A stretch of DNA of 64,000 nucleotides from Natrialbaceae archaeon AArc-T1-2 (GTDB lineage: Archaea; Halobacteriota; Halobacteria; Halobacteriales; Natrialbaceae): the NCBI RefSeq assembly GCF_030273315.1, contig NZ_CP127174.1, positions 2,976,001-3,040,000 of the forward strand, in the 5' to 3' direction. The position numbers were made by a program, and so were the translations under genes. Below the pieces are notes generated by a model. The model did no database searches. It had not been told where the DNA came from and saw only the letters and a list, made by a program, of their open reading frames with translations. Shown one piece after another: positions 18,705 to 35,703 of the stretch (positions are counted from its first letter, which is position 1; the number at the start of each line of letters is the position of its first letter).

Positions 18705-18773
18705 CGTCCACGCCGGTGTCGGACTTTCCCCCGTCACTGAACCCACCACAGCCGACGCCCGTCGTCGCCTCGA

Positions 18774-18820
18774 GTTCGACAGTCGCGTGCCAGCGATTCG
18801 ATCCCGGCGCGGGATCCGTT
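18774..18820. repeat. Right copy of a decayed repeat flanking the glycan block
   Basis: Matches the left copy near 13210 (TCGCGTGCCAGC, then TCCCGGCGCGGGA and a trailing CC) in the same orientation. The inner TCCCG-GCG-CGGGA is itself an inverted repeat. It lies in the 188-base gap between the convergent flippase and beta-helix genes. Confidence 0.45.
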
Positions 18821-18892
18821 TCGTGAACTCGAGCGACGGTCGTGGCGTCGGCACGCCCGTCTATCGGATGGCGCAGCACGATCCGCGACTCG

Positions 18893-20947
18893 TTACTGAT
18901 CTCGTGCGTTGTACTCGACGTCGACGTTCGCCTCGCCGAGTACCGTGACGTCTTCGACCTCGCCGTCGAACCAGTAGGCGTCGTTCCAGTCGGCGACGAC
19001 GCCGCGGACGGTTCCGTCGGAGACGACGGCCTTGTGGTTCGCGTCACCGGCGCTCGCCTTGGCGAGGGTGCCATCGACGTGGATCGAGTAGACGCTCGGA
19101 CCCGACGCCTCGGTGCCGTCGACGACCAGCGCGTGCGGAAGTCGTTCGTCTTCGCCGTACTCGTCGGAATCGATCTCCTCACCGTCGACTCTCACCGTTG
19201 CACTCCCCTCGGTGACGGTGATGGCTGTAATCGTCCCGGCGAAGTGAAACCGCTGGACGTCCTCCGTGATCGAACTCTCGACGGTGGTCCCCGAGACGAC
19301 CGTCACGTCGTCGTCGCCGTCGTACTCGATCTCGCCGTCGACCGTTACCTCGTAGCTTGCGGGCTCGTCGCCGGCTTCGATCTCGAGGGTGTGAGGCAAC
19401 CGGTCACCGTACTCGTCGGGATCGAGCTCCTCGCCGTCGAGGACGACCGTCGCCGGTCCGTCGACGGTGAGTTCCTCGAGGTCGCCGTCGAACCGCCACG
19501 CGTCCTTCCAGTTCGCGACGACGCCCGAGGCGGTGCCGTCTTCGACGGTCGCCTCGTCGTCGACGGTCGCACCCTCGTCCGTCGAGGGGGCGACGTCGCC
19601 GGAGACGACGAACTCGTATCGCGTGGTGGCTTCCTCGCTGCCGTCGAAGAGGAGCACGTTCGCGTCGCTGTCGTCATCGTCGCGGTCGTCAGGATCGATC
19701 TCCTCGCCGTCGAGAGCGAACGTCGCGGGACCGTCTGCCTCGAGCGTCTCGAGATCGCCGTCGAACGCCCAGGCGTCGACCCCTCCGTAGACGCGGCCGG
19801 TGGCCTGGGCCTCGTCGTCCGCGATCGAGATGTTGTCGTTGATCGTCGCGCCGTCGTACGCGGAGGGTTCGATCGGGCCGCCGTCGACGGTGAGCTCGTA
19901 GTCGGTCGGCTCGCCCGGTTCACCGTCGGCGACGAGGACGTGGTCGCGTTCGTCGGCCGGATCCGTCTCGTCGGTCTCGTCCGGATCTGACGGTGCGTCA
20001 CCGCTCGATCCCGAGCCGCCGCTTGCGGCTTCCTCAGCCGACGTCGGACAGCCGTCGGGAACGACGTCCTCGGGATCGCGGCCGTTGCCGGAGACGAGAT
20101 TGATGGTGCTGCCGTTTGACTCGACGAGGCCGTCGTCCCACTCGGTGTCGTAGACCTCGACCTCCGAGCCACGGTTGCTCGCGCCGCCGACGAGTGCGTT
20201 GTGTCGGCCGTTCATCACGAAGTGACAGTCACGGACCTCGACGGGACCGGGGGCCCACGCCCACAGACCGCGGCCATTCTGGCCACCGCCGTCGTTGACG
20301 GCGACGCTGTTCGTCACCTGGCCGCGGGCGAGTCGGTAGTGTGCGACCCAGGAGTTCTTCGAGTAACAGCCGTCGATGTGGACGGTGCCGCTGCCACCGG
20401 GGGGCGAGCAGTAGAAGGAGTTGTCGCCCATGCCCTCGACGTAGACGTTTTTGATCTCGAGGTGGCCGCTGTGTCGCGGCGCGACGTAGATCCCGAGTCC
20501 GGCGCGGCTCTGGTTAATCGCGCCGTCGCCGAGGTAGACGTTCTCGATGCGACCGGTCGATCCGGCGTCGACCGAACAGCCGATGTACGAGCCACGGGCC
20601 TTGTGCGGCCCGACGACGCCGATGTTTCGGATCGTCCAGTCCGAGCCGTTCACCCTGAACCTGACCTGTGCGTTGTTCGCGCGCTGGTCGTAGAGTACGT
20701 TTTCGTGTGTTTCACCGTCGTCGAGTCGTACCGTCCGGAGCTCGCCCGGCTCGAGCTCGACGACCTCGTACTCGTCGGCGGCCGCAGTGCCGGCTGCAGC
20801 CGTGCCTGCAGCCACAGCCGCGGTCGCGCCAGCGAGTTTGAGATACGATCGTCGGTGAAGTAATCCGTCATTACCGCCTCCAGTCGGACCCTCGTCCGAC
20901 GAGCGGTCCGCGTGGTAATCGTCCAGTACCGAAGGTTCGCGTGCCAT
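18893..20947 (-). CDS. Tat-exported right-handed beta-helix protein with C-terminal repeats
   Basis: A 684-residue secreted acidic protein. LLHRRSYLKLAGATAAVAAG (about 29-48) is a twin-arginine signal. Residues about 60-320 form a parallel beta-helix-type domain with asparagine- and glycine-rich turns (GCSVDAGSTGRIENVYLGDG, GMGDNSFYCSPPGGSGTVHI). A Ser/Asp-rich linker (about 321-345) leads to four imperfect repeats of about 85 residues, each with an opening like YELTVDGG and an ending like DGPATFALDGEEIDP. The beta-helix part is shared closely with the gene at 21333. Carbohydrate binding, lyase or adhesion roles are all possible. It uses a promoter module shared with two other genes. Confidence 0.85.
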   Translation of the reverse strand: MAREPSVLDDYHADRSSDEGPTGGGNDGLLHRRSYLKLAGATAAVAAGTAAAGTAAADEYEVVELEPGELRTVRLDDGETHENVLYDQRANNAQVRFRVNGSDWTIRNIGVVGPHKARGSYIGCSVDAGSTGRIENVYLGDGAINQSRAGLGIYVAPRHSGHLEIKNVYVEGMGDNSFYCSPPGGSGTVHIDGCYSKNSWVAHYRLARGQVTNSVAVNDGGGQNGRGLWAWAPGPVEVRDCHFVMNGRHNALVGGASNRGSEVEVYDTEWDDGLVESNGSTINLVSGNGRDPEDVVPDGCPTSAEEAASGGSGSSGDAPSDPDETDETDPADERDHVLVADGEPGEPTDYELTVDGGPIEPSAYDGATINDNISIADDEAQATGRVYGGVDAWAFDGDLETLEADGPATFALDGEEIDPDDRDDDDSDANVLLFDGSEEATTRYEFVVSGDVAPSTDEGATVDDEATVEDGTASGVVANWKDAWRFDGDLEELTVDGPATVVLDGEELDPDEYGDRLPHTLEIEAGDEPASYEVTVDGEIEYDGDDDVTVVSGTTVESSITEDVQRFHFAGTITAITVTEGSATVRVDGEEIDSDEYGEDERLPHALVVDGTEASGPSVYSIHVDGTLAKASAGDANHKAVVSDGTVRGVVADWNDAYWFDGEVEDVTVLGEANVDVEYNARDQ

Positions 20948-21332
20948 GCAGTTCGGGTAATCAGACTATACTCGCATAAACCTTACTTCCGATAGATCGG
21001 TTAAATTTACGTATATTCAATTGTTCATTACGTACATCTCGATCAATCTTCCGTATTTATTCACGAATATATATAACAGGCCGACGCTCAGTCGGGCGAG
21101 TAATATCGTATTACCCGCCGCTTACGCTCGAATCGGCGCTGAATCGCCGACAGTCGTCACGATCCGACAGCTAGCCGGGACAGAAGGCGGTCGAACGACC
21201 GTCACGAAAAATCAAAACGGCGTCGAACGAAGCGTCAGGGGGACGAGACGGCGGAGGGCCGAGCGTCAGGGGGACGAATGCGGCGTCGAGTGGAGGGGTG
21301 GAGTGGAGGGTGACGCCGAGTGTCAGTGGGGG
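20948..21332. other. Intergenic region between the paralogous beta-helix genes
   Basis: The left side (20948-21010) is the promoter of the beta-helix gene to its left, with the shared module. The centre (21000-21120) is AT-rich. Toward 21220-21290 there is a direct repeat, AGCGTCAGGGGGACGA, seen twice about 32 bases apart, followed by a G-rich stretch with GTGGAGGGGTGGAGTGGAG. No gene is supported. Confidence 0.5.
20954..20984 (-). promoter_or_regulatory. Shared promoter module, copy 1
   Basis: On the minus strand AAGGTTTAT (20976-20984) is followed after exactly 16 bases by TACCCG (20954-20959), with the start codon a few bases further. A third block, AAATTTAA, lies 16 bases upstream of AAGGTTTAT. 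The TTTAT part fits an archaeal TATA box. The same spacing is seen at copies 2 and 3. Confidence 0.6.
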
Positions 21333-22295: not shown

Positions 22296-22301
22296 TGCAT
22301 T

Positions 22302-22332
22302 CGGGTAACCCCGCGTTTTCTCTATAAACCTT
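22302..22332 (-). promoter_or_regulatory. Shared promoter module, copy 2
   Basis: On the minus strand AAGGTTTAT (22324-22332) is followed after 16 bases by TACCCG (22302-22307), just before the start of the shorter beta-helix gene. AAATTTAA lies 16 bases upstream of AAGGTTTAT, as in copy 1. Confidence 0.6.
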
Positions 22333-22767
22333 TCCTTGTGGATCCCTATTAAATTTATTGAATGTAAATAATACACTACGCAAATGGAACGGCATTTTGG
22401 ATATTTCTTCGCGAATTAAATACAGTGTCCGGTCGCCGACGATCCGGATGAGTCGAACGAAAAGGGCCAGTTACGCGGATGAAACGGAACGGAAATAGAC
22501 TGTTACTCGAGGGAATAGCCGTTCTCCGTCGTGAATTCGGTCAGTAGCGTCGGCCGGGCTGCTCGAATATCTTCCGGTGCTCGCAGTCGAAATCGGGTCG
22601 GACGTTCGACGGTTCGCGGCCGTAATCGATTAGTTAGACGACCGGTTCGATCGGCGATAGGCGACAATCATCGATTGTCCGTACCATTCCCGATCGTGTG
22701 GTGGTCCGTGCGAGCGAGTCATACCGGACCGGAAAGTCAGTCCGAATCGATCGGGCGTCGTCCGGGC
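22333..22767. other. Intergenic region downstream of the membrane protein gene
   Basis: Holds AT-rich promoter-upstream sequence of the beta-helix gene (22333-22420), then G+C-rich sequence without a supported gene up to the end of the 22768 gene. I see no hairpin stronger than chance, and no RNA gene. Confidence 0.45.
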
Positions 22768-24555
22768 TCACTCGTCGGACTCGATGGCGTACATCCGGAA
22801 CTCCTCGTTCGAGACCACCTTGTTCGCGTTCGGGGACGCATCGACGCCCTCGAGAGCCGCTTCGCTGTGGTGGAGTTCCTGATAGACCTCGAACTCTCGG
22901 GTCTCGTCGTACTCCGTGGCGACGAAGTAGTACTCGCCGTCTCCGTACGCGCCGCTGTAGTTTCCGGACTCGAACTCGTCGACGTCGACTCGTCCGTCGT
23001 CGACGCCCTCGTAGTTGCCACGTTCGTCCCCTTCGACCCCATTGAGCCCGTCACCGTACCGGTTGACGCCGAAGCCGAGCCCCGCGTAGGGGCGGTCGTC
23101 GCCATGTTCGAGTGCCGACCCGTAGCCGCTTACTTTCTGATCGGTGACGTGCTGGGTCGGCGAGTAGATGTACGGCGACGCGAAGACGACCGGCAGCGAG
23201 AGAACGAGACAGGTCCCGAGCAGTATCGCAGCGAGCGTGTTCGACCCGGGCCTCGGAAGCAAGCCTGCGAGCCGTCCGAAGCCGTGGGCGAGGCCGATGC
23301 CGGCGAGGATCGTCCCGAGGACGTAGATGAACCCGACCTGTCGGAACGCCATCGCCTGGGTACCGAAGAAGTAGACGACGAAGATTACGGACAGCGGAAT
23401 CGAGGCGACACCGAAGTACGTGACGAACGCCTTCGACTCGCGGTCGGTTCGCGTCCAGCCGAGCCAGGTGAGCAGTACGAACAGCCCGACGACGACGGCG
23501 ACGAGCGCGCTGACGAGAAACAGCTTCGTGAACAGTTCGGGGACGCTGCCGCCGATCTCCGCGAGCGACGTCTCTCGCTGTTCGACCTCTTCACCCGTAC
23601 CGACGTCCTGGGTGAGCAGACCGTATATCAATCCCGCGAACGCCTGCCGAAACCGTTCGTTGCTCGCCGACCAGACGAGGAAAAAGCCGCCGAGAACGAC
23701 CGTGTGAGCGTACGCTGTCGGCTGTTCGACGATCGGGTGAGAGACGTACCGGTGACGAGCCACGAACTGGATCAGCGAAATCGTCGCCAACACGAGCACG
23801 ACGTTTACCATCTGCTGGGGGTGGACGAACAACAGTCCGGCACCAGTCACGAGCACGACCACGCCGTACGGCGAGACGCCGAACGGCAACGCCGTGTGGT
23901 CGCCGTGACGCCGCAGATACGCGACGATCGCGAAGATCACGACGGGAGCGAAAAACAACGCGTTGGAGTTCGTATGCACGCTCGTGTGCGTCGCGATGTT
24001 GTTGATCGGCAGGACGAACCAGGAGACGATCGCGGCGAATCCGACGGCGGCCGCGTTGCCGGTTATGTCACGCACCACGAGCGGAACGAACACGACGAAC
24101 AGGACGAACACGACCACGAGCGAGAAAAGGAGGGCTCGCTCGAGGGGAACGCCGCCGACGAGGTGGATGATCGCCCCGAGGCTGTGCATTCCGGGATAAA
24201 ACAGCTCGTAGGGTGCGAGCGAGCCGTCGACGATGTCTGTCGTCCAGCCGAGGTGTGTAAGCGCGTCGCCCATCCCGGAAAAGCGGTAGTTCCTGGTGAG
24301 CGGAAGGCTCACGATCGACGTGATCGCCGTCGCGCCGAGTGCGATTCCAAGCGCCTGGTACCGACCGCGACAGGCGAGTGTCACGCCGAGTGCAACGGCG
24401 AAGGCAACCGCGATCCCGACCCAGGTCACAGTCGGCGTTCCGGCGTAGATCGACGCCTCGTACCCGTCGGGCGGAGACGCTCTCGCGACGGCGACTGCCA
24501 CCGCGATCGAGAGAAACCCGACCGAGAGGAGCCAGTTCAATGCAGGACGTGTCAT
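22768..24555 (-). CDS. Large multi-pass membrane protein, possible GT-C-type glycosyltransferase
   Basis: A 595-residue protein with about 12-14 transmembrane segments between residues 5 and 430, then an acidic extracellular-type tail (about 440-595) rich in Gly, Tyr and Asp. The layout, with a long early loop between helices (YRFSGMGDALTHLGWTTDIVDG, broken here at residues about 92-113) and Asp and His residues there, resembles GT-C glycosyltransferases that use lipid-linked sugars, but the standard DXD motif is not obvious. It sits next to the beta-helix and flippase genes, consistent with a surface-glycan role. Function is inferred from layout only. Confidence 0.6.
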   Translation of the reverse strand: MTRPALNWLLSVGFLSIAVAVAVARASPPDGYEASIYAGTPTVTWVGIAVAFAVALGVTLACRGRYQALGIALGATAITSIVSLPLTRNYRFSGMGDALTHLGWTTDIVDGSLAPYELFYPGMHSLGAIIHLVGGVPLERALLFSLVVVFVLFVVFVPLVVRDITGNAAAVGFAAIVSWFVLPINNIATHTSVHTNSNALFFAPVVIFAIVAYLRRHGDHTALPFGVSPYGVVVLVTGAGLLFVHPQQMVNVVLVLATISLIQFVARHRYVSHPIVEQPTAYAHTVVLGGFFLVWSASNERFRQAFAGLIYGLLTQDVGTGEEVEQRETSLAEIGGSVPELFTKLFLVSALVAVVVGLFVLLTWLGWTRTDRESKAFVTYFGVASIPLSVIFVVYFFGTQAMAFRQVGFIYVLGTILAGIGLAHGFGRLAGLLPRPGSNTLAAILLGTCLVLSLPVVFASPYIYSPTQHVTDQKVSGYGSALEHGDDRPYAGLGFGVNRYGDGLNGVEGDERGNYEGVDDGRVDVDEFESGNYSGAYGDGEYYFVATEYDETREFEVYQELHHSEAALEGVDASPNANKVVSNEEFRMYAIESDE

Positions 24556-24846
24556 GTCTCGACGTCGTCCACTCCGGCGGTCGATCCAGCGGACCCGTCA
24601 CAGCCATCCGAACGACTACCGATACACATGTGCCGCGACGGTCTGTGACGCGGTAATTTGTTATCCACAGAATAGCTGCGGATGCCCTCGAACCCGCTGC
24701 AGTAGTTCAGGAATACGAGCACGTCCTCGCGCCTTCGCAGACGGTACGGATTTTCGAAACGGTTCAACGATTCGGATGATTTTTACCGTCGTTCGTGATC
24801 CGTCGGGTCACGAGACGGTATCGGACGCTGCCGTTTCCCGACCACC

Positions 24847-26172
24847 ATGCAATCCGACCCGTTCGTCCGCATCGACCGAATCGACGTGACCGGAACCAGC
24901 CTCGAGTGTACTGTCCGCCCGTCGCCGTCCATGCGGCGATTCTTCACCGGCGAGCCGTTCAGAGCGCGGTACGACGTCGAGATCGAGGACGTCCCCGACG
25001 GCGTCCTCGCGATCCCCGTCCTCGCGCAGGTCTGTCCCGTCGCCTGGACCCAGGGGGCGGACGTCTACGTCGACGAAGTCGACACCACCTTCGCACACGC
25101 ACTCGAGGACGCCGAGACTGCGCTCCGTTCGCTGTACCCGGAGTTTATGCTCGGCGGGGATCTCCAGGTCCGGGAGACCGTCGACGTCGCGCCCGACAGT
25201 AGCGGCGACGACAGTGCGAGCGGCCTGCTGTTTACCGGCGGCGTCGATTCGACGTGTTCGCTCGTCCGCCACCGCGAGGAAGCGCCCACGCTGATCAGCG
25301 TCCGGGGGTGGACGGTCAGGCCCGACCCGGTCGACGACGGCAAGTGGGCCGACCTTCGGTCGCGGGTCACCCGCGTCGCCGACCGACGCGACCTCGAGGC
25401 GTCGTTTGTCGAGTCGAACATGCTCGCGACGCTCGACAACCCCATGTTGCTCGCACACTTCGGCCACCGGGTCGACGGCGGCTGGTACAGCTCCGTCGGC
25501 CACGGGCTCGGTCTGCTCGGGCTCTGTGCGCCGCTCGCGTACGCACGCGGGCTCGAGAACCTCTACGTCGCTGCCACCCACTGGGAAGGCGTCGACCTCG
25601 AGTGGGGTTCCCGGCCGGAAATCGACGACCACGTTCGCTGGGCTGGCACGCAGTGTCATCACGACGGCTACGAGCTGACCCGCCAGGAACGGATCGACGC
25701 CATCGCTGCGTTCGTTCGCGAGACCGGCGACGACCTCGAGCTCCAGACCTGTAACGACCGGATGGACGGCAACTGCAGCGCCTGCGAGAAGTGTTACCGC
25801 ACGATGGTCGGCTTGCGCCTGTCGGGACTCGACCCCAACGACCACGGCTACCGGTTCGCAGACGCCGACTACGCCGACCTCCGGCGATCGTTCGAACGCG
25901 GCGAGTGGGTCCTCGGCGAGGACGAACGCATCATGTGGGCCGACATCCGCGACCGCGTCCGCGAGACCGAGCCCCGCTCGCCCGTCGAGCGGGCGTTCTT
26001 CGCGTGGCTCGAGGAGGTCGACCTCGAGGACCTCGTCGCGGATGCGGAGCCGCCGCTGTCACATCGGCTGCTGCGGGCGACCGCACGGAACGCGCCACAC
26101 GGCGTCTACAACGCACTCTATCCGGCCTGGACGGCGGCGAAGGTGGGAACGCGTCGCCTCGGGCTACGCTAG
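24847..26172 (+). CDS. PP-loop superfamily protein with a cysteine cluster
   Basis: A 441-residue protein. The PP-loop nucleotide-binding motif is LLFTGGVDSTCSLVRH (about 126-141). Further on, a cysteine cluster CNDRMDGNCSACEKCYR (about 302-318) resembles the zinc site of QueC-like enzymes. Family members activate a carbonyl group with ATP. The open context is the glycan island, so a role in sugar or cell-wall amidation is possible, but QueC itself is much shorter and this is not it. ATG at 24847 follows an AT-rich region with TTTTTACC near 24781. Confidence 0.65.
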   Translation: MQSDPFVRIDRIDVTGTSLECTVRPSPSMRRFFTGEPFRARYDVEIEDVPDGVLAIPVLAQVCPVAWTQGADVYVDEVDTTFAHALEDAETALRSLYPEFMLGGDLQVRETVDVAPDSSGDDSASGLLFTGGVDSTCSLVRHREEAPTLISVRGWTVRPDPVDDGKWADLRSRVTRVADRRDLEASFVESNMLATLDNPMLLAHFGHRVDGGWYSSVGHGLGLLGLCAPLAYARGLENLYVAATHWEGVDLEWGSRPEIDDHVRWAGTQCHHDGYELTRQERIDAIAAFVRETGDDLELQTCNDRMDGNCSACEKCYRTMVGLRLSGLDPNDHGYRFADADYADLRRSFERGEWVLGEDERIMWADIRDRVRETEPRSPVERAFFAWLEEVDLEDLVADAEPPLSHRLLRATARNAPHGVYNALYPAWTAAKVGTRRLGLR

Positions 26173-26232
26173 CGGATCCGAGACGGAGATCCGTCCGGAT
26201 CATATATACTTCCGCGCGCCCGAGTCCCGAGC

Positions 26233-27138
26233 ATGCGCGTTGCTATCCTGGGCTGTGGCTACGTCGGTCGCGAGCTCGGCCGGCAGCTGCTCGCGGCGGG
26301 ACACGATCCGATCGGGGTCAGGCGGTCGAGCGAGGGGGTCGCAGCGATCGAATCGGACGGCTTCGAGGGCGTGCAGGCGGACGTCACGGAGTCGCCCTCG
26401 CTTGCGGTCGTGCCGGACGTAGACGGCGTCGTCTTCGCCGCCAGCAGCGGCGGCCGCGACGCCGAGGCCGCCCGCGAGATCTACGTCGATGGTCTCGAGA
26501 CGGCGATCGAGGCGTTCGGTACGCGGGAGGACCCACCCGAACGGTTCGTTTACACCTCCTCGACGGGCGTCTACGGCGACCACGGCGGCGACTGGGTCGA
26601 CGAGGAGACGCCGATCGAGCCGACGACCGACAAGACCGAGGTGCTCGCCGAGGCCGAACGAATCGCTCTCGAGGTTCCCGATCGGTACGGTATCGACGGG
26701 ACCGTCGCCCGCTTTGCAGGGCTGTACGGTCCCGATAGGTACCGCCTCGAGCGCTACCTCGAGGGGCCAGTCACGGAGGGCTACCTGAACATGATCCACC
26801 GCGACGACGCCGCCGGCGCAGTTCGATTCCTGCTCACCGACGACCTCGCACGCGAGGAGACGGTGCTCGTGGTCGACGACGAGCCGGCAGATCGCTGGAC
26901 GTTCGCCGACTGGCTGGCCGAACAGTGTGGGCTCGAGCCGCCCGAGAAGCGGACGACCGACGAACGCCTCGCCGAGGACGATCTCTCGGAGGCGACGCGT
27001 CGTCGCGTATCGACGAGCAAGCGGTGCTCGAACGCCACACTCCGGGGACTGGGCTATGATCTCGTGTATCCGACCTACCGCGAGGGGTATCGCGACGCGA
27101 TCGAGCAGTTCCGTCGCGAACGTGGACGTCGACCGTAA
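26233..27138 (+). CDS. NAD(P)-binding sugar epimerase/dehydratase-like SDR
   Basis: A 301-residue extended or atypical SDR. The Rossmann motif is VAILGCGYVGRELGRQL (3-19). YTSSTGVYGDHGGDW (about 106-120) contains the Ser/Thr and Tyr region. FAGLYGPDRY follows. The conserved YxxxK motif is not clearly present, which is typical of the YeeZ-type branch. Substrate could be a nucleotide sugar or another carbonyl compound. It stands alone with a 51-base gap to the DHH gene. Confidence 0.75.
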   Translation: MRVAILGCGYVGRELGRQLLAAGHDPIGVRRSSEGVAAIESDGFEGVQADVTESPSLAVVPDVDGVVFAASSGGRDAEAAREIYVDGLETAIEAFGTREDPPERFVYTSSTGVYGDHGGDWVDEETPIEPTTDKTEVLAEAERIALEVPDRYGIDGTVARFAGLYGPDRYRLERYLEGPVTEGYLNMIHRDDAAGAVRFLLTDDLAREETVLVVDDEPADRWTFADWLAEQCGLEPPEKRTTDERLAEDDLSEATRRRVSTSKRCSNATLRGLGYDLVYPTYREGYRDAIEQFRRERGRRP

Positions 27139-27140
27139 CA

Positions 27141-27173
27141 AACGACCAACGAGGGAGAAAGTTCTTGGTCGTT
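27141..27173. terminator. Hairpin between the SDR and DHH genes
   Basis: AACGACCAA (27141-27149) and TTGGTCGTT (27165-27173) are perfect complements with a 15-base loop. The position is just after the SDR stop and 17 bases before the DHH start, so it could be a terminator or a translation-blocking structure. Confidence 0.4.
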
Positions 27174-27190
27174 CACTTTGACTGTGGCGT

Positions 27191-28372
27191 ATGAGCGACC
27201 GGATCGTCCGGACGACCGCTGACGGGGCGACCGCACCGCTCGTCGTCGACGGGACGACCGACGCGCTCCAGGACGTCGATCCGCTCGTGCTCTCGCTCGC
27301 CGTCGTCGTCGTGTTCGTTGCCGTCCTCGGTGGCTGGTGGCTCGTCCGCTGGTTCCGGCGACCCGTGGGGATCCGCCTCCAGCGCGTCCTCGAAGGGTAC
27401 GACGACGTGACGGTGTTGATGCACCCGAACCCGGATCCGGACTCGATGGCGTCCGCGATGGGTGTCGCACGGATCGCCGAGTCGGTCGACACCGACGTGA
27501 CGTTGCAGTACGCCGGCGAGATCCGCCACCAGGAAAACCGTGCGTTCCGGACGGTGCTCGAACTCGATCTGGAGACGATAGAGACGAGTACCGATCTCGC
27601 CTCCGAGGCGGTCGTCCTGGTCGATCACAACACCGCCCGTGGGTTCGCCGGCGCACAGCGGATCGAGCCGATCGGCGTCGTCGATCATCATCCCGGAAAC
27701 GGGACGGGGACGGAGTTTACGGACGTCAGAACCGACTACGGCGCGGCATCGACGATCGTCGTCGAGTATCTTCAGGACATCGACGGGATCGGAGACGAGG
27801 ACGACGACGGACCCGGCATCTCGCCGGAACTAGCGACCGGACTCTTGTACGGCATTCTCTCCGATACGAACCACCTGACAAAGGGATGTTCCGCGGCCGA
27901 GTTCGAGGCCGCCGCGTTCCTCTTTCCGGGGATCGACGAGGACCTGCTCGATCGGATCGCGAACCCGCAGGTCTCGGACGAAGTGTTACAGATCAAAGCC
28001 GACGCGATCACGGACAAACGCGTCGAAGGGTCGTTTGCGGTCTGTGACGTCGGCCAGATCGGAAACGTCGACGCGATCCCACAGGCCGCAGACGAACTCG
28101 TGCAACTCGAAGGCGTCACTGCCGTGGTCGTCTACGGTGAGAACGACGGGACGCTTCATCTCTCCGGGCGCTCGCGCGACGACCGGGTCCACATGGGCGA
28201 GACGCTCCGACACGTCGTCAGCGACATCCCGATGGCAAGCGCCGGCGGTCACGCGCGGATGGGCGGCGGACAGCTCTCGCTCGATCACATGCAGGGGATC
28301 GGGCCCTCGAGCGGCCTCGACAGAGACGAGTTCGAAGATCGACTGTTCGCGGCGCTGTCGGGCGAGCGATGA
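27191..28372 (+). CDS. Membrane-anchored DHH-family phosphoesterase
   Basis: A 393-residue protein. A hydrophobic segment at about 36-58 (LSLAVVVVFVAVLGGWWLV) precedes the DHH domain. Motif I is MHPNPDPDSMASAMG (about 78-92), motif II LVDHNTA, motif III VVDHHPGNG (about 163-171), and the DHHA1 ending is SAGGHARMGGGQ. Such proteins cleave phosphodiester bonds in nanoRNA or cyclic dinucleotides; the membrane anchor recalls GdpP-type enzymes, though no PAS or GGDEF domain is present. Substrate not proven. Confidence 0.85.
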   Translation: MSDRIVRTTADGATAPLVVDGTTDALQDVDPLVLSLAVVVVFVAVLGGWWLVRWFRRPVGIRLQRVLEGYDDVTVLMHPNPDPDSMASAMGVARIAESVDTDVTLQYAGEIRHQENRAFRTVLELDLETIETSTDLASEAVVLVDHNTARGFAGAQRIEPIGVVDHHPGNGTGTEFTDVRTDYGAASTIVVEYLQDIDGIGDEDDDGPGISPELATGLLYGILSDTNHLTKGCSAAEFEAAAFLFPGIDEDLLDRIANPQVSDEVLQIKADAITDKRVEGSFAVCDVGQIGNVDAIPQAADELVQLEGVTAVVVYGENDGTLHLSGRSRDDRVHMGETLRHVVSDIPMASAGGHARMGGGQLSLDHMQGIGPSSGLDRDEFEDRLFAALSGER

Positions 28373-28397
28373 GGGCGATCGAGTCCGGAATCCGGTA

Positions 28398-28826
28398 TCA
28401 GACCGTAAAGACGGGACAGCCACAGGTCCGGAGCACGCGGTCGGCGACGCTGCCGATGTGTGGCAGTTCGGCTTCTCCCTCACCGTGTTTCCCCATCACG
28501 ACGAGGTCGGCGTCGACCGCATCGGCCACTGTGACGATCTCCTCGTGTGGCATGCCACGTCTGCAGTGAACCTCCGTGTCCAGATCGTGCTCGCGGGCGC
28601 GCTCTGCGAGCGCTTCCAGATCGGCGAGCGCCTCGTCTTCGGCGTCCTCGAGCGTGAGTTCGTAGTTCGAGAGCGCTGGCGTGTCTCCGTGGCGGATCTT
28701 GTCGATAATGTGAACGAAGTGGACGTCCGCATCGTTGTCGGCGGCGATCGAGAGTCCGTGTTCGACGCCGCGTTCGGCCGGTCGGCTACCGTCGGTCGGA
28801 ATCAAGATTGTGTCGTAGGTCGGCAT
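28398..28826 (-). CDS. UspA-family universal stress protein
   Basis: A 142-residue protein starting MPTYDTILIPTDGS, the usual UspA opening. The ATP-binding pattern G-x2-G-x9-G occurs in VVMGKHGEGEAELPHIGSVA (about 109-128), ending in CPVFTV. The longer reading from 28904 runs into intergenic sequence, so ATG at 28826 is preferred. It likely binds ATP and responds to stress; the precise role is unknown. Confidence 0.88.
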   Translation of the reverse strand: MPTYDTILIPTDGSRPAERGVEHGLSIAADNDADVHFVHIIDKIRHGDTPALSNYELTLEDAEDEALADLEALAERAREHDLDTEVHCRRGMPHEEIVTVADAVDADLVVMGKHGEGEAELPHIGSVADRVLRTCGCPVFTV

Positions 28827-29134
28827 ATCTTCCGCTGGGTCGTCCAGCGAGGTGAAACTACCGACCGCCGTATTCTCCTCGGCCGACCCTTCACTCGAGC
28901 ACACGCCACGTCCACATCACGCTTATACTGTCGGTCATACATACGTACCCTACCTGTGAGAGCGGACGGGCTGACATGCGCTGCAACGCCGGTTCTGGCA
29001 CACGCCAGTTCATCGGTCCACGACCGACAGTATTAACAGCGGCGGGTGTTCGCTGATGAGGGCGATCCCGAGAGCACGATAGAGCGTCCTCACAGGGAGT
29101 GCCGGAGAGAGACACGAAGGAATCGAACGGTCGT
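28827..29134. other. Intergenic region between UspA and the acidic-protein gene
   Basis: 308 bases. The part near UspA should hold its promoter (minus strand). The rest is G+C-rich with no clear gene, hairpin or RNA feature. Confidence 0.4.
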
Positions 29135-29716
29135 CTACGGTGAGAACAGCCGCCGGATCCTGGCGAGGATACCGCCGTCGTCGGCTCCGTCTGCACCGTC
29201 ATCGTCCGAATTCGGCTCCCGTGTCGCTGTCGCCGTCGTCCCCTCCTCTCCCGACTTCGCGAGCGGACCGTCGGCCGGTTCCGGTTCGGCTGCCACGTCC
29301 GCCGAGTCCGGCCCCGCCTCGAGGTCCTCGAGCGAGAGGTCGAGTTCGTCGACCTCAGGCGTCGGCTCGCGGTCGGCTCCGGCTTCGGCGCTGCGAACGT
29401 CCGCGCCAGTTACGTCGCCGCGCTCGACTCGTGTGGCAAGGTCGTCCGCCGCCGACTCGAGATCGGCCGGTGGCGACTCGGCGCTTGGATCATCGTCGTC
29501 TGCCGGCTCGTCCTCGATCCGGACGCCTCCGTCCTCGCCGTCGGCTGGCGTCGTCTCGTCCCCGTCTGGCATCGAGGAGATCGACTCGAGGATGTCGTCG
29601 ACGCCCTGATCCGAGACGACGCGCCGTGGTCCACCGCCGGGAGACATCGGGTCGCTGCCGTCGTCCGTGTCGGTCGCGGTGTCCTCGTTGTCCGCGCGTT
29701 CCTCGTCGTCGCTCAT
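29135..29716 (-). CDS. Highly acidic hypothetical protein
   Basis: A 193-residue protein made mostly of Asp, Glu, Ala and Pro, probably disordered, with a short positively charged C-terminus (ILARIRRLFSP) that could form an amphipathic membrane- or partner-binding helix. An N-terminal helix DQGVDDILESISSM is the only other structured-looking part. I chose ATG at 29716 (MSDDEERAD). Function unknown. Confidence 0.55.
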   Translation of the reverse strand: MSDDEERADNEDTATDTDDGSDPMSPGGGPRRVVSDQGVDDILESISSMPDGDETTPADGEDGGVRIEDEPADDDDPSAESPPADLESAADDLATRVERGDVTGADVRSAEAGADREPTPEVDELDLSLEDLEAGPDSADVAAEPEPADGPLAKSGEEGTTATATREPNSDDDGADGADDGGILARIRRLFSP

Positions 29717-29767
29717 CGTCCACACCTGTCGGCTGCGTCGTTATATACTATCGGACGTACCTGTGTG

Positions 29768-29801
29768 ACGATTCTCGCCACCCCGAGGCGGCGAGAATCG
29801 T
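29768..29801 (-). terminator. Terminator hairpin after the YihY gene
   Basis: ACGATTCTCGCC (29768-29779) and GGCGAGAATCGT (29790-29801) are perfect complements with a 10-base loop, extended by GTG and CAC around a one-base bulge. It lies between the stop of the YihY gene (29836) and the start of the acidic-protein gene (29716), both on the minus strand. Confidence 0.55.
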
Positions 29802-29835
29802 TCACGACGTACGTCCGGCAGTATAACTCCGGGCA

Positions 29836-30618
29836 TCACGCGGCGGCGTCCGGTCGTGCGAGGACCACGTTGATCACGGCTCCGAGCAGGATTAGGATAC
29901 CGGCGAAGTACAGCCAGGTGACGAACAACAACACGGCACCGATGGCACCGTAGGCCTCGTAGCGAGCGGCATTTGCGGCGTAGAGTTGAAAGCCGGCCTG
30001 GAGGACCACCCAGCCGACGGCGGCGAAGGCGGCTCCGGGAACGACCTCGACGAGGCCTACTGGAACCGGTGGAAGGACGTAGTACACCGGGAGAAAGGCG
30101 AGAAAGAGCCCGAGTAACAGGGCGAGCCAGCCGAGCGAGCCGGCGGCGGGGATCTCGTCCGCGACGATCCCGAGGACGACGCCGATGACGATCATCAACG
30201 CGATCGCACCCGCGACCGCGAGGACGACCACGATGCCGTCACGAAGCTCCTCGAGTAGGGAGTCCTCGCCTGCCGTGCCGTAGACCTCGTCGAAGGCCTT
30301 GCTGAGTCCCCGAAACACCTTCAGGCCACCCCAGGTCGCGACGGCGAGTGCAACGATCGACGCTTCCGCACGGCCCGCCTCGGTCGTCAGTGCAGCAGTG
30401 ACGAGGTCTTCACCGGCCGCGGGAAGCAAGTCGCCGGCGGCGTCGATCAACCGTTCGGCGAGTTCCTCTCCGCCGAGCAGCGAGCCAACCACGAGCGCCA
30501 GCAACACGAGCGGGATCAACGAGACGAACGCGTAGTACGCGAAACCGGCCGCGAGAAGCGTGATTTCGCGGTCGCTCGCGGTCCGGTATATCCCCTCGAG
30601 CGTCTCCCGGGCGTTCAT
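29836..30618 (-). CDS. YihY/BrkB-family inner membrane protein
   Basis: A 260-residue membrane protein with about six hydrophobic segments. Its opening MNARETLEGIYRTASDREI and AAGFAYYAFVSLIPLVLLAL are typical of the YihY/virulence factor BrkB family (earlier misnamed RNase BN), and GGLKVFRGLSKAFDEVY is another family block. The longer reading upstream covers the divergent hisF promoter, so ATG at 30618 is used. Function of the family is not well established. Confidence 0.85.
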   Translation of the reverse strand: MNARETLEGIYRTASDREITLLAAGFAYYAFVSLIPLVLLALVVGSLLGGEELAERLIDAAGDLLPAAGEDLVTAALTTEAGRAEASIVALAVATWGGLKVFRGLSKAFDEVYGTAGEDSLLEELRDGIVVVLAVAGAIALMIVIGVVLGIVADEIPAAGSLGWLALLLGLFLAFLPVYYVLPPVPVGLVEVVPGAAFAAVGWVVLQAGFQLYAANAARYEAYGAIGAVLLFVTWLYFAGILILLGAVINVVLARPDAAA

Positions 30619-30735
30619 ACCGTCTCCGACGGTGTCTCCGGCAAAGAGTATGCAAGCCGTACACCCGAATTCGCCGCGCAGGCAGCAGATCCAGACGGCT
30701 TTACTACCTCTGGCGTCTACGTCCGCCACACGCAC

Positions 30736-31551
30736 ATGGGCCTGACCAAACGCATCATCCCCTGTATCGACGTCGACATCGACGACGACGGCGACCCGGC
30801 GGTCTACACCGGCGTTCACTTCGAGGACCTCGAGTACACGGGCGATCCGGTCGCGATGGCACGCGAGTACAACGAAGCTGGCGCGGACGAGTTCGTCTTT
30901 CTCGACATCACGGCCTCTGCCGAGGGCCGGGAGACGATGCTCGATGTCGTCGAGCAGGTCGCCGACGAGGTGTTCATCCCGCTCACGGTCGGCGGCGGCA
31001 TCCGGACGACCGAGGACATCAAAGAGACCCTGCGTGCCGGCGCGGACAAGGTCTCGATCACGACCGGCGCGCTCGAACGTCCCGAACTGATCAACGACGG
31101 CGCGTCGGCGTTTGGCAGCCAGTGTATCGTCATCAGCGTCGACGCCCGTCGCCGGTACGACGAGGCCGGCGAACACTACGTCGAAGTCGACGGCGAGTCC
31201 GTCTGGTTCGAGTGCACGAAAAAGGGGGGGCGTGAAGGAACGGGAATCGACGTCCTCGAGTGGGCCGCCGAGGCCGAATCCCGTGGCGCGGGCGAGCTGT
31301 TCGTCAACTCGATCGACCGGGACGGGACGAAAGACGGCTACGACATCCCACTGACGAAAGCGGTCTGTGAGACCGTCGACACGCCGGTCATCGCCTCCTC
31401 GGGCTGTGGGAAGCCCGAACACATGCACGAGGTGTTCACCGAGGCCGGAGCCGACGCGGCGCTTGCGGCGTCGATCTTTCACTTCGACGAGTACTCGATC
31501 GGCGAGGTCAAAGCGTACCTCGACGAGCGGGACGTGCCGGTCCGGTTGTAG
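30736..31551 (+). CDS. hisF: Imidazole glycerol phosphate synthase, cyclase subunit HisF
   Basis: A 271-residue TIM-barrel enzyme. RIIPCIDVD (6-14) holds the catalytic Asp, [11 protein letters not shown] (about 85-95) and [11 protein letters not shown] are phosphate-binding loops, and [12 protein letters not shown] (about 194-205) contains the second catalytic Asp. With HisH it makes imidazole glycerol phosphate and AICAR in histidine synthesis. hisH and other his genes are not in this window, so the pathway is scattered here. ATG at 30736 is clear. Confidence 0.95.
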
Positions 31552-31685
31552 CCGCTCGATATCCCGGAACGACGGCCGACCAAGCGGCTAATCGGCTGTT
31601 TCTCGTCGCTGTGTGCCGTGGTATATCCGACGAATCGAATACGCATACCGGTACACCTTTCCGTCTTCCACCTCCATCGTAACGT

Positions 31686-31862
31686 ATGGGTTTTGGTAGC
31701 TACGACGAATCCGAACAACAACAGCAGACGGCAGACGATGACGAGGACGTCGAAGCCGTCAACGTCCACGAGAACGACCACGAAGGGGAGCTGTCTTTCG
31801 AGTCCGACCTCTCGACGGACGAACTCGTCTCCCAGCTCGGGGAGATGAAAGACGAAGAGTAA
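31686..31862 (+). CDS. Small acidic DUF5786-like protein
   Basis: A 58-residue protein opening MGFGSYDESEQQ and ending LGEMKDEE. The MGxGSYDESE start is characteristic of a haloarchaeal small-protein family (DUF5786, as I recall). No catalytic motif is seen. The gene stands alone after hisF, with a 134-base gap and an AT-rich stretch near 31620 as likely promoter. Function unknown. Confidence 0.75.
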   Translation: MGFGSYDESEQQQQTADDDEDVEAVNVHENDHEGELSFESDLSTDELVSQLGEMKDEE

Positions 31863-32037
31863 GTCGACTTCTCTCGGACCGACGTCGCGGATTCTGCTGG
31901 TCACAGACCAGTGTTCAGGGGACGAGCACCCATGCTGAAGTTCTCCGACACGTCGGCCATGCCTGTCCCCCGCCGTTCGAGTGAAGGCAGGGCCACGTCG
32001 CTATCGACGAGCATCGGTCAATACGACGCCACCACGG

Positions 32038-32730
32038 TCACGCAATCGTCCGACGACAGAGATCGTCGATCGCTCGGCGGAGTCGCTGTGAAATCGCGGA
32101 TTTCGAGACGCCAAACCGCCGTGCGAGTTCGGCTTGTGAGATCTCCCGTGGCACCTTGAAATACCCCTCTTCGTAGGCGACGCTAAGCAACTCCGATTGC
32201 TCGGGTGTGAGACCGACGATGGTGTCGTTCTCCTCGTCTGCCGTCTGCAGGTACGTGACCTGGAAGGCGACGTCTCGGTCCTGACAGCGGTCGTTGAGCG
32301 CGACAAGTGCATCCCGATCCGGAAGCCACAACTGCACGGTCCAGCCGTCCCGACGGCCCGTTTGATCGAGGATTCGCCCCCCGACCTCGGCCGTCGCCGG
32401 AACGTACGTGATCGCGCGATCGGTAAGCGTGACGCGGTAGACGTGTCGATCGGAGTCACGACGGATGAGGATCGGATCGACCACGGTCGGATCGTCCTCG
32501 AGCCCCGCCTCGAACTCCTCGAACGCGGAGGCGTAGGCGGTGAGATACAACAGCGTGTGGTCTCCGTCGACGGTCGTCTGGTAGTCGGGTTCGACCATCA
32601 CGTCCGATCCACGCCGGAGCGTCGGCCGCAACAAGAGATCGGGGTGGTCGAGCTGGACCGCTGCGACGACACCGTCTCCGACCTGCGATTGAAGTTTCGC
32701 ACGGCCGGCTCCGATGGCGTTCGTGCTCAC
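32038..32730 (-). CDS. Bat-type helix-turn-helix transcription regulator
   Basis: A 230-residue protein with the haloarchaeal bacterio-opsin-activator-like layout. A sensor-type N-terminal part (about 1-160) is followed by the HTH-10 domain: GLTPEQSELLSVAYEEGYFK and then the helix-turn-helix AELARRFGVSKSAISQRLRR (about 202-221). I chose GTG at 32730: it has a GGAGGTG ribosome site seven bases before it and its GTGA overlaps the stop of a short upstream leader peptide. It probably controls nearby surface genes sharing the promoter module, which is inference. Confidence 0.85.
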   Translation of the reverse strand: MSTNAIGAGRAKLQSQVGDGVVAAVQLDHPDLLLRPTLRRGSDVMVEPDYQTTVDGDHTLLYLTAYASAFEEFEAGLEDDPTVVDPILIRRDSDRHVYRVTLTDRAITYVPATAEVGGRILDQTGRRDGWTVQLWLPDRDALVALNDRCQDRDVAFQVTYLQTADEENDTIVGLTPEQSELLSVAYEEGYFKVPREISQAELARRFGVSKSAISQRLRRAIDDLCRRTIA

Positions 32731-32816
32731 CGTTTCACCTCCGTTCTCGATTCCGTTGGACCGTCCAACGAACGACCCCCGTAGTGATAGACCAGTACCG
32801 CAAGTTCGCGTGCCAT
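32727..32816 (-). CDS. 29-residue leader peptide, homologous to the start of the beta-helix gene
   Basis: ATG at 32816 opens MARELAVLVYHYGGRSLDG and runs to a TGA at 32727-32729 that overlaps the GTG start of the Bat-type regulator. The DNA of its first 60 bases matches the first codons of the gene at 20947 (MAREPSVLDDYHADRSSDEG), starting with an identical 13-base run from the ATG. The regulator is in another frame, so the peptide's translation could be coupled to it. It is probably a captured gene start now serving as a leader. Confidence 0.55.
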   Translation of the reverse strand: MARELAVLVYHYGGRSLDGPTESRTEVKR

Positions 32817-32821
32817 GCAAC

Positions 32822-32852
32822 CGGGTACTATCACGATACGTGTATAAACCTT
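32822..32852 (-). promoter_or_regulatory. Shared promoter module, copy 3
   Basis: On the minus strand AAGGTTTAT (32844-32852) is followed after 16 bases by TACCCG (32822-32827), then the leader ATG at 32816. A TAATTCAA-like block lies 16 bases upstream of AAGGTTTAT, matching AAATTTAA in copies 1 and 2 with substitutions. Confidence 0.6.
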
Positions 32853-33015
32853 TCTCAGACAAAATCTATTGAATTAACATAATATAACTTGTTTCTTACT
32901 GAACTATCACACAATCTTCTACGTTTCGTCGCGAGTATATGTCCGCTGTCGCGTCGATCGAACGAGTCGTGCTGTCCGCTTCTCGGTGACTGACGTCCGC
33001 GTTCGACCCGCGAAC

Positions 33016-33687
33016 TCAGACCGGAAGCGTACCCACGACGCCGAGATAGATCTGGGCAAGCCCCGCGACGATCATTACACCGCCGGCGACCCGCTCGAGC
33101 GTCCCGATGTATGCCGATAGCCGGCCCGCGCCCGCGACCAGCCCCATCCCGGTTGCGACGGTCACCGCGAGCATGAGTGCGGCGACGATCCCGGCGTAGG
33201 TCGCCATTACGAGGACCGCACCGCTGGTCGAGAGCGTCACCGCCCGGCCGACGACGCCGACGAAAAGCGGCGCGACACAGCCGGCCGCCGCCAGTGCGTA
33301 GCCGGTTCCGAAGATTCCGAACCCGAGCACGCTCGAGCGACGTTTTGGCAGGGTCATCGACAGCGACGGTGCACGGTCGACGACGACGAGAACGCCGAAG
33401 ACGACCAGAAGCGCGCCGACGACCGGCTCGAGGATCGTGACGCGCGAGAAGGCCGCGTGTCCGATCGAGAACGCCACCGCCGTGAGGACGGCGAACGTCG
33501 CGAGGATGCCAACGCTTGCGGCGATACCCCGACTGATCGCGCCGCCAAGTGAGGCGTCGCCGTCGGTCTGGCTGACGTAAAATCCCACGTAGCCGGGCAA
33601 CAGCGGGTACGCACACGGGGAGAAAAACGTCGCGACGCCCATCGTAGCCGCGAATCCGATCGTTCCGAGTACTGCAGCATCGAACAT
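33016..33687 (-). CDS. CcdA-type thiol-disulfide transport membrane protein
   Basis: A 223-residue protein with six membrane segments. FFSPCAYPLLPGYVGFYV (about 21-38) and AAAGCVAPLFVG (about 130-141) carry the paired cysteines and prolines of CcdA/DsbD-like proteins, which move reducing power across the membrane to extracellular thioredoxin-like partners. The gene ends the Sco-TlpA-TlpA-CcdA operon, which suits a role in cytochrome oxidase or haem protein assembly. Confidence 0.88.
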   Translation of the reverse strand: MFDAAVLGTIGFAATMGVATFFSPCAYPLLPGYVGFYVSQTDGDASLGGAISRGIAASVGILATFAVLTAVAFSIGHAAFSRVTILEPVVGALLVVFGVLVVVDRAPSLSMTLPKRRSSVLGFGIFGTGYALAAAGCVAPLFVGVVGRAVTLSTSGAVLVMATYAGIVAALMLAVTVATGMGLVAGAGRLSAYIGTLERVAGGVMIVAGLAQIYLGVVGTLPV

Positions 33688-33689
33688 CG

Positions 33690-34241
33690 TCAGGTATCAC
33701 CCTCGGTGACGGTACTGGCGGCCTGGACGGCGTCGACGATCTCGTCGACCGACTTGTCGCCCGCCTCGGTCAGGTGTGGCGTCCCTCGCTCGTCGAGGAC
33801 GACCGTCACGGGGACGCTGATGGCGTCGTAGCGTTCACCGAGTTCCAGGTCCGGATCGTGGCCAACCGGCCACTCGCCGCCGTGTTCGTCCCACCACTCG
33901 ACGAGCGTGTCCTCCTCGACGGTTCCACCGGGATCGTTCGACACCGCCAGAAACTGCACGTCGTCCTCGAGTTCCGCCCGTGCCTCCCGAAGCGTCGGCA
34001 GCTGGCGCTCGCAGTGAGAACAGGAGGTCAGGAAGAACTCGAGGACCATCACCTGTCCCGGCTGTGGAACGGCCATCGTCCCGGCCTCGCTGCCCGGCGC
34101 GTCGATCGTCTCGACCGTGATCGGGTCGTCGTCGTACGTTTCGGGCTCGTCGTCACCGTTGAACGCGTCGGTCGTAACCGCACCCACGCCAGCGAGGACG
34201 GCGACGCTTCCGAGCCCGGCGATGAGTTCTCGTCGTCGCAT
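33690..34241 (-). CDS. TlpA-like extracellular thioredoxin-fold protein (second copy)
   Basis: A 183-residue protein. MRRRELIAGLGSVAVLAG is a twin-arginine-like signal anchor. The thioredoxin fold includes MVLEFFLTSCSHCERQLP (about 66-83) with a CSHC redox site, and the cis-Pro loop is ISVPVTVVLDERG. It is a close paralogue of the gene directly upstream. It likely receives electrons from the adjoining CcdA-type protein. Confidence 0.85.
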   Translation of the reverse strand: MRRRELIAGLGSVAVLAGVGAVTTDAFNGDDEPETYDDDPITVETIDAPGSEAGTMAVPQPGQVMVLEFFLTSCSHCERQLPTLREARAELEDDVQFLAVSNDPGGTVEEDTLVEWWDEHGGEWPVGHDPDLELGERYDAISVPVTVVLDERGTPHLTEAGDKSVDEIVDAVQAASTVTEGDT

Positions 34242-34259
34242 CTATGAGTGGACCATTGG

Positions 34260-34841
34260 TTAGTTCGACTCGTCGGTCGGTTCCTCGATCGCGGCGACGG
34301 TACCGTCGACGGCGTCGACGAGTTCCTCAACCGTCTTCCGGCCGGTATTGTTCCAGTGGACGTCCCCCGCGCCGTCGATGACGACGGTTTCCGGGACGCC
34401 CGTGACACCGTACCGTTCGAACAGGTCGACGCTCTCGTCGCGACCGACGGACCAGTCGCCGTCGTAGTCGGCCCACCACTCGGCGAGTTCTGCGTTCTCG
34501 ATGCTGCGTTCGTGCGTCACCGACAGGAAGCGAACGTCGTTGTCGTCGTCGAGTGCTGCTCTCGCCTCGGCAAGCACCGGCATCATGTCCTGACAGACGC
34601 CACAGGTCGTCATGAAGAAATCGAGGACCATCACCTGTCCCGGCTGTGGGACAGCCATCGTCCCGGCCTCGCTGCCCGGCGCGTCGACCGTCTCGATCTC
34701 GATCGGATCGTCGCTGTAGTCTCCCCTATCGGCGTCATCGCCACCGTCGCCGGCCGACGGCAGCCCCTGTGTTGCGACGACGCCACCGCCAGCGAGCACG
34801 GCCAGGCTGCCGACGCCTGCGATGAGATCGCGCCGTCTCAT
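34260..34841 (-). CDS. TlpA-like extracellular thioredoxin-fold protein (first copy)
   Basis: A 193-residue protein beginning MRRRDLIAGVGSLAVLAG, a twin-arginine-like signal. The redox site is CGVC within FMTTCGVCQDMMP, and the cis-Pro loop is VTGVPETVVID. I chose ATG at 34841, whose ATGA overlaps the stop of the Sco-type gene; a longer reading runs into that gene. DNA identity to its neighbour around the MAVPQPGQVMVL region is very high, pointing to a recent tandem duplication or conversion. Confidence 0.85.
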   Translation of the reverse strand: MRRRDLIAGVGSLAVLAGGGVVATQGLPSAGDGGDDADRGDYSDDPIEIETVDAPGSEAGTMAVPQPGQVMVLDFFMTTCGVCQDMMPVLAEARAALDDDNDVRFLSVTHERSIENAELAEWWADYDGDWSVGRDESVDLFERYGVTGVPETVVIDGAGDVHWNNTGRKTVEELVDAVDGTVAAIEEPTDESN

Positions 34842-35554
34842 CCCTCGACCACCGTCCCGAGGTCGTCGCTGATCGTCGACCACTCGACGCTCGTCGCGTT
34901 CGGATACGCGCGTTCGACGATCCCGTCTTTGTTGACGAGCAGGATCAGGTTGTAGTGGACGATGTCGTACTCGCCCTCGAGGTCGTCGCCATCGTCGTCG
35001 GTCTCGTTGTGGTCGTGGTCCTCCAGGGCCTCGTTTCGCAGCGTCAGCCCGAACTTCTCGTCGAGGATGTCCCGTGCCTCGAAGAAGTTCTCCGGACGCA
35101 GGAAGTGCCAGTTACCAGCCTCGAGGTCGACGTCCTGTATCTCCGCTTCCTCACGGAGTGTGTCTTCGGTGTCTCTGTCCGGATCGAACGTCATCGCCAG
35201 AAAGGCCGTTTCGTCGGCGTACCCGCCATCGATCGCGTCGTGTTGTGCGTGAGCGAGCCGCGAGAGCAACATCGGACACGAATCGTCGTGGCAGTTCGTG
35301 TAGATAAACGTCAGCAAGAACGCGCGCTCGCCCTCGAAGCCCTCGGTCGAGACCTCCTCGCCGAGCAGCGGGTCGGGAAGCGAAAGCGACGGAAACTCGT
35401 CGCCGTGGGTGGGATGGGTGGAGGCACTCAGGTCCTGTTCCGGCGGCCCGAGTACCGTCCGACTGGAGCCCACGCCGGGGACGGTCTCGAGACAGCCTGC
35501 GACGCCGGCCATACCCGCGATCCCGAGCGACCGAAGATACGTACGCCTGTCCAT
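34838..35554 (-). CDS. Sco1/SenC-family lipoprotein
   Basis: A 238-residue protein. MDRRTYLRSLGIAGMAGVAGC is a Tat-like signal ending in a lipobox cysteine (residue 21; the stretch is shown to residue 20 plus C). The Sco fold contains FIYTNCHDDSCPMLLSRL (about 83-100), where the two cysteines are spaced CX4CP rather than the usual CX3CP, and a metal His lies in YDIVHYNLILLV. Sco proteins carry copper or thiols for cytochrome oxidase CuA assembly. It starts the four-gene redox operon. ATG at 35554. Confidence 0.82.
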   Translation of the reverse strand: MDRRTYLRSLGIAGMAGVAGCLETVPGVGSSRTVLGPPEQDLSASTHPTHGDEFPSLSLPDPLLGEEVSTEGFEGERAFLLTFIYTNCHDDSCPMLLSRLAHAQHDAIDGGYADETAFLAMTFDPDRDTEDTLREEAEIQDVDLEAGNWHFLRPENFFEARDILDEKFGLTLRNEALEDHDHNETDDDGDDLEGEYDIVHYNLILLVNKDGIVERAYPNATSVEWSTISDDLGTVVEG

Positions 35555-35703
35555 GCCCGAGGGATATGGAGCGAACGAGCAAAGGCACATTGGTTCGTTC
35601 CTCAAAACTGAGCCGTCGTGACGGTGGGTGGTGGCCTCGCTCGTTCGTGCGTCACGGCATCGGGAACACCGGCCACGGATGGATACAATACTTGAGAGTG
35701 CCC

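Follow-up and report, generated by a model that had tools for sequence, protein, structure and literature searches.

The window, as the whole 64,000-nucleotide stretch analysed is called here, comes from a salt-loving archaeon and includes a gene encoding a regulator in which a Pfam search identified two domains, BAT (PF15915, 38.6 bits against a cut-off of 25.8) and, at the C-terminus, HTH_10 (PF04967, 59.9 bits against a cut-off of 23.1). In the domain search no PAS/GAF sensor part, characteristic of the N-terminus of classical Bat, was found in the 230 amino acids, and the protein is a short BAT-HTH_10 form and not Bat itself. The regulator is preceded by a frame of 29 codons, whose TGA (32729-32727) overlaps the regulator GTG (32730-32728) in the sequence GTGA at 32730-32727 of the minus strand, an arrangement that the first-pass annotation had described correctly. 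An in-frame TTG at 32862 was rejected as the regulator start because it lies 5' of the TATA box and the homologues align from the GTG. The stability of the possible hairpin within the 29-codon frame did not exceed that of shuffled sequences (z = -0.6). The window also includes BH1, whose product has a Tat-like signal (RRSYLK), and a second related gene, BH2, located upstream of BH1. Neither BH1 nor BH2 had a match in Pfam, and the label "beta-helix" is taken from the first-pass annotation. Homologues of BH1 are present in 114 of the 125 genomes of the family. The features of both regions are listed in the table.

Table. Features of the regulator and BH1 regions (positions in the window).
Feature	Coordinates	Strand	Remarks
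Regulator	32038..32730	-	230 aa; BAT and HTH_10 domains
Captured leader frame	32727..32816	-	ATG 32816-32814 to TGA 32729-32727; 29 codons (MARELAVLVYHYGGRSLDGPTESRTEVKR)
SD-like motif GGAGGTG	32736..32742	-	5 bases 5' of regulator GTG
Possible hairpin CGTTGGA-CGG-TCCAACG	32754..32770	-	inside captured leader; predicted fold, weak evidence
Captured core promoter	32817..32862	-	TATA box TTTATA at 32848-32843; z = 5.0 against BH1
Operator-like site GTA-N9-TAC	32825..32839	-	GTATCGTGATAGTAC; between TATA box and leader ATG
Captured block, upstream part	32863..32975	-	z = 5.3 against BH1 upstream; similarity stops past it
BH1	18893..20947	-	ATG 20947; its lineage donated the block
BH1 promoter region	20948..21100	-	TTTAT to GTA-N9-TACC at 20956-20980

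Local alignment of the 5' regions of the leader frame and BH1 gave a score of 74, against a mean of 15.9 (SD 2.6, maximum 27) in 1000 shuffles. The coding part of the leader (z = 7.2), the core promoter (z = 5.0) and the upstream part (-47 to -160; z = 5.3) were each similar to their BH1 counterparts at levels never reached in 2000 shuffles. Among the 64 ORF starts of the window BH1 alone resembles the leader closely, with a score of 61 compared with 22.5 for the next, and a 25-base start motif, allowing up to 3 mismatches, has two sites in the 3.36 Mb genome, the leader and the BH1 start. The flanks on either side showed no similarity to BH1 (z = -0.1 and 0.8), so the homology is confined to a block with sharp ends, at about 32728-32975 and 20860-21100, that comprises the leader plus some 160 bases 5' of it (about 245 bases). 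The homology of the short frame and its promoter to the start of BH1, as claimed in the first-pass annotation, was therefore confirmed by an alignment far better than random, and the block proved larger than had been stated. Within the coding part the similarity reaches about codon 20 (RSSDEGPT in the leader and RSLD-GPT in BH1), and the differences fall mostly at codon positions 1 and 2. Both promoters have haloarchaeal TATA boxes, but a chance resemblance of two AT-rich promoters is already refuted by scores that lie far outside the shuffles in both the coding and the upstream part.

The block is found at the beta-helix starts across the Natrialbaceae, the family to which the relatives compared here belong, and in these genomes the motif ATGGCACGCGAACCTTCGGTACTGG marks the start of beta-helix-type genes. 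Among 108 regulator orthologues only that of the window has the block. When the 125 family genomes were searched at the DNA level using the leader region of the window as query, the matches, where inspected, were beta-helix starts, and no match was found at the regulator of another genome. This distribution bears out the proposal that a promoter and N-terminus were copied from the beta-helix gene to the regulator. Inheritance of like 5' regions by both kinds of genes, with no recent copying, would account for the GTA-N9-TAC sites that both possess, but it is very improbable: the block is present at no other regulator, the 5' region conserved among the orthologues differs from the captured one, and the similarity takes in linker codons private to the BH1 of the window. 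Compared with 48 beta-helix starts of the family, the coding part of the leader matched its own BH1 best by far (33.5 versus 22), and its upstream part was somewhat nearer to the upstream regions of G040 and G016 than to that of its own BH1. This pattern fits a copy taken from the BH1 of its own lineage, with both copies diverging afterwards.

The position that the captured sequence occupies is older than the capture. Of the 108 orthologues, 106 have an ATG-initiated frame with a TGA overlapping the GTG or ATG of the regulator; its length is exactly 21 codons in 86 of them and codon 10 encodes tyrosine in 106 of the 108. The arrangement that the first-pass annotation proposed to check in relatives is thus present as regards the overlapping frame, while the captured block is restricted to the window species; likewise, its idea that the leader originated from a captured gene start holds for the sequence but not for the leader position. 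Within the family, the window species forms a group with G040 and G016 (Natribaculum breve TRM20010) in the regulator tree, with support of 100/93. Since it is nested among leader-bearing relatives, the captured sequence replaced an old leader. The branch leading to the window regulator (32038-32730) is among the longest in the tree, with 0.6 changes per column, so this protein evolved fast since losing the old 5' region or about then.

The overlap of stop and start is by itself weak evidence for a leader because any regulator beginning with GTG-AGC or ATG-AGC includes a TGA at its start. The strong evidence for the ancestral leader comes from its fixed ATG and the kept frame. A search that required an ATG, 12 bases and a palindrome, and no frame, found 104 cases, in 103 of which the frame continues to the overlap. 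In 105 of 105 sequences the leader frame had no stop, compared with 66% expected by shuffling, and a control frame was stop-free in 57. Leader length needs 14 changes on the tree; the in-frame set admits by its definition only lengths divisible by three, and the unconditioned set adds one exception, L048 (G031:C90). In L048, from a genome that is 53% complete, the leader start and palindrome are kept, but no stop separates them from the regulator: the leader ATG opens a single frame of 238 codons, apparently a fusion of leader and regulator. The conservation of the frame in the relatives makes translation of the leader likely. A search of the open-access literature found no description of this leader, and a conserved upstream frame of this kind, with a hairpin and an operator-like site inside it, is, so far as searched, undescribed; it precedes a Bat-type regulator in about 100 species.

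Besides the invariant ATG, the ancestral leader includes a nearly invariant palindrome, GTAA-N7-TTAC. Codon 9 invariably ends in T although the amino acid it encodes varies; the palindrome ignores codon meaning and is therefore a DNA signal. Bases 35-52 could form a hairpin, with 81% standard pairs over 82 distinct leaders, compared with 72% in shuffles, in which relatedness remains, and 26-57% when the pairing was slid. In 105 orthologues the region 5' of the leader ATG includes the conserved elements TGAATA-N-GTATTG near -83 and CCGTGTATAGCGTCTAC near -48, both unlike the usual TTTATA box, and no consensus structure was predicted for this region. The window species lacks the ancestral palindrome leader, its hairpin and both upstream elements. 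No clear amino-acid constraint on the leader was detected (silent fraction 0.347 versus 0.294 expected, reached by 24 of 300), which argues against a specific peptide function. A sensory leader peptide, acting for example by attenuation or nascent-chain arrest, could explain the constant length in many species and the tyrosine always kept at codon 10, but we consider it improbable, as the invariant bases belong to a DNA palindrome indifferent to codon meaning, the amino-acid constraint is small and the peptide of the window is unrelated to the ancestral one. Furthermore, reading of the captured leader revealed neither a run of a single regulatory codon nor a terminator hairpin followed by a T run.

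The surroundings of the regulator also changed. In N. breve and G011 the gene order is SCO, two Tlp-like genes, a CcdA-like gene, about 3.5 kb, and the regulator. The gap in N. breve (L168:8256-11369) includes, directly upstream of the regulator, a 1037-amino-acid frame whose putative product reads as a sensor-like PAS/GAF protein ending in an HTH_10-like part. In the window 286 bases separate the CcdA-like gene from the regulator; no counterpart of the 1037-amino-acid protein is present between them, and its best matches in the genome are located elsewhere, at 38% or less. The disappearance of the sensor-like gene from this gap indicates that the capture was accompanied by a deletion. An inversion is suggested by the region 17208-35620 of the window, where the orientation of the regulator and the SCO/Tlp/CcdA genes to the beta-helix cluster is the reverse of that in N. 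breve and G011.

The common beta-helix promoter consists of, in order, GTCTGTAAATTTTA, GAAAGTTTAT, GTA-N9-TAC and ATG. In a set of 40 such promoters the GTA is conserved at N9 spacing with a TATA box immediately upstream, and TTAC is located 11-13 bases 5' of the ATG in 39. The spacing of GTA-N9-TAC is that of GTAA-N7-TTAC in the ancestral leaders, and hits in G003, G027 and G030 show the full GTAA-N7-TTAC of the old leaders. The pattern TTTAT-N3-6-GTA-N9-TACC occurs twice in the window genome, in the leader promoter of the regulator and in the BH1 promoter only; a stricter TATA-plus-site pattern has 14 occurrences in 61 genomes, compared with 2 for a reversed control. A TATA plus GTA-N9-TAC module is also found at G014:C1:1967800-1967827 (L184), far from the known beta-helix start of that genome, and may be a further target. 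The regulator and the beta-helix genes are both present in 107 of the 125 genomes and both absent from 10, with beta-helix genes alone in 7 and the regulator alone in 1; they are often on one contig, tens of kilobases apart. From the site in the regulator's own leader, this linkage and the co-occurrence we infer that the regulator itself binds GTA-N9-TAC. Since G027, G035 and G053 have beta-helix genes and no close regulator orthologue, another factor may bind the site. As the captured promoter brings the type of site that the old leader had, the regulator and the beta-helix genes probably still share one control, which may be exerted by the regulator itself, and autoregulation may have been kept. 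A wider and more tentative proposal, to which we give somewhat less than an even chance, is a family-wide autoregulatory module in which the regulator binds GTA-N9-TAC in the beta-helix promoters and in its own leader, its translation is coupled to the leader, and the window species has swapped the cis part. If so, that swap would have rewired transcription and translation in one step with the feedback loop kept.

We estimate a probability of about 70% for the complete explanation, in which the captured promoter and start of BH1 replaced the old leader and expression of the regulator now depends on a leaderless start and reinitiation at its GTG. The ancestral state was a promoter region and a short leader, typically of 21 codons, with a stop overlapping the regulator start; in the window lineage a copy of the BH1 promoter and first codons replaced the 5' region of the regulator, with loss of the sensor-like gene upstream. 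The comparisons demonstrate the homology, the direction of copying, the replacement and the frame conservation in the relatives. In Haloferax volcanii 72% of the protein-coding transcripts are leaderless, that is, their transcription starts within 5 bases of the start codon (PMC4983044), and SD motifs play no role in 5'-UTR initiation but serve reinitiation where genes overlap (PMC6728339). The TATA spacing of the captured promoter fits a leaderless transcript, predicted to begin at the captured ATG or immediately 5' of it. Given the Haloferax facts, a ribosome should start at this ATG, read 29 codons, terminate at the TGA and reinitiate at the overlapping GTG, aided by GGAGGTG; leaderless start, translation, reinitiation and binding by the regulator are all inferred. 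Because a leaderless promoter carries its start codon, a leader would result from the move of the promoter, and its frame must reach the regulator start. The role of such a leader would be the loading of ribosomes rather than the production of a functional peptide.

The excess of differences at codon positions 1 and 2, together with the lack of clear constraint in the relatives, means that chance alone might explain the open frame in the window. In a rival reading, the copied BH1 start is a fossil that landed upstream and decayed, its frame having no role and the regulator being expressed independently from its GTG. This would agree with the divergence of the leader from BH1 mainly by replacement changes, the SD-like motif of the regulator and its long branch, but it is unlikely given a frame open to the exact overlap, an arrangement selected in about 100 relatives, and an intact TATA box and operator-like site; moreover, SD motifs do not drive 5'-UTR initiation in Haloferax (PMC6728339).

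Where most transcripts are leaderless a promoter is hard to move without its start codon, and the window offers a natural example of an apparent joint move, after which the start codon opens a leader frame. The capture probably gave the regulator a new switch besides a new leader, and the analysis yields a predicted pair of regulator and operator for exported beta-helix-type proteins, a widespread family.

The captured pair resembles the termination-reinitiation pairs of H. volcanii (PMC6728339) in its 4-base stop-start overlap, the same direction of both frames and the SD-like motif that the window sequence shows before the second start; it differs in that its first frame is no gene but a captured fragment of 29 codons, and in that the coupling is predicted. 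Like the small upstream frames of H. volcanii (PMC4983044), the leader is a short frame directly before a gene of normal size; unlike them, it is conserved across a family, contains a palindrome and a hairpin, and was replaced in one species by a foreign promoter and start. The peptide leaders of trp-type attenuators are also short frames before a regulated gene; in this leader, however, a run of regulatory codons and a terminator-like T run are absent and the peptide is not conserved. Promoter capture by local duplication is a general process by which a gene acquires the promoter of another gene. The regulator gained the promoter of another gene too; here, however, that promoter came with its start codon and first codons, and these have taken the place of an existing leader.
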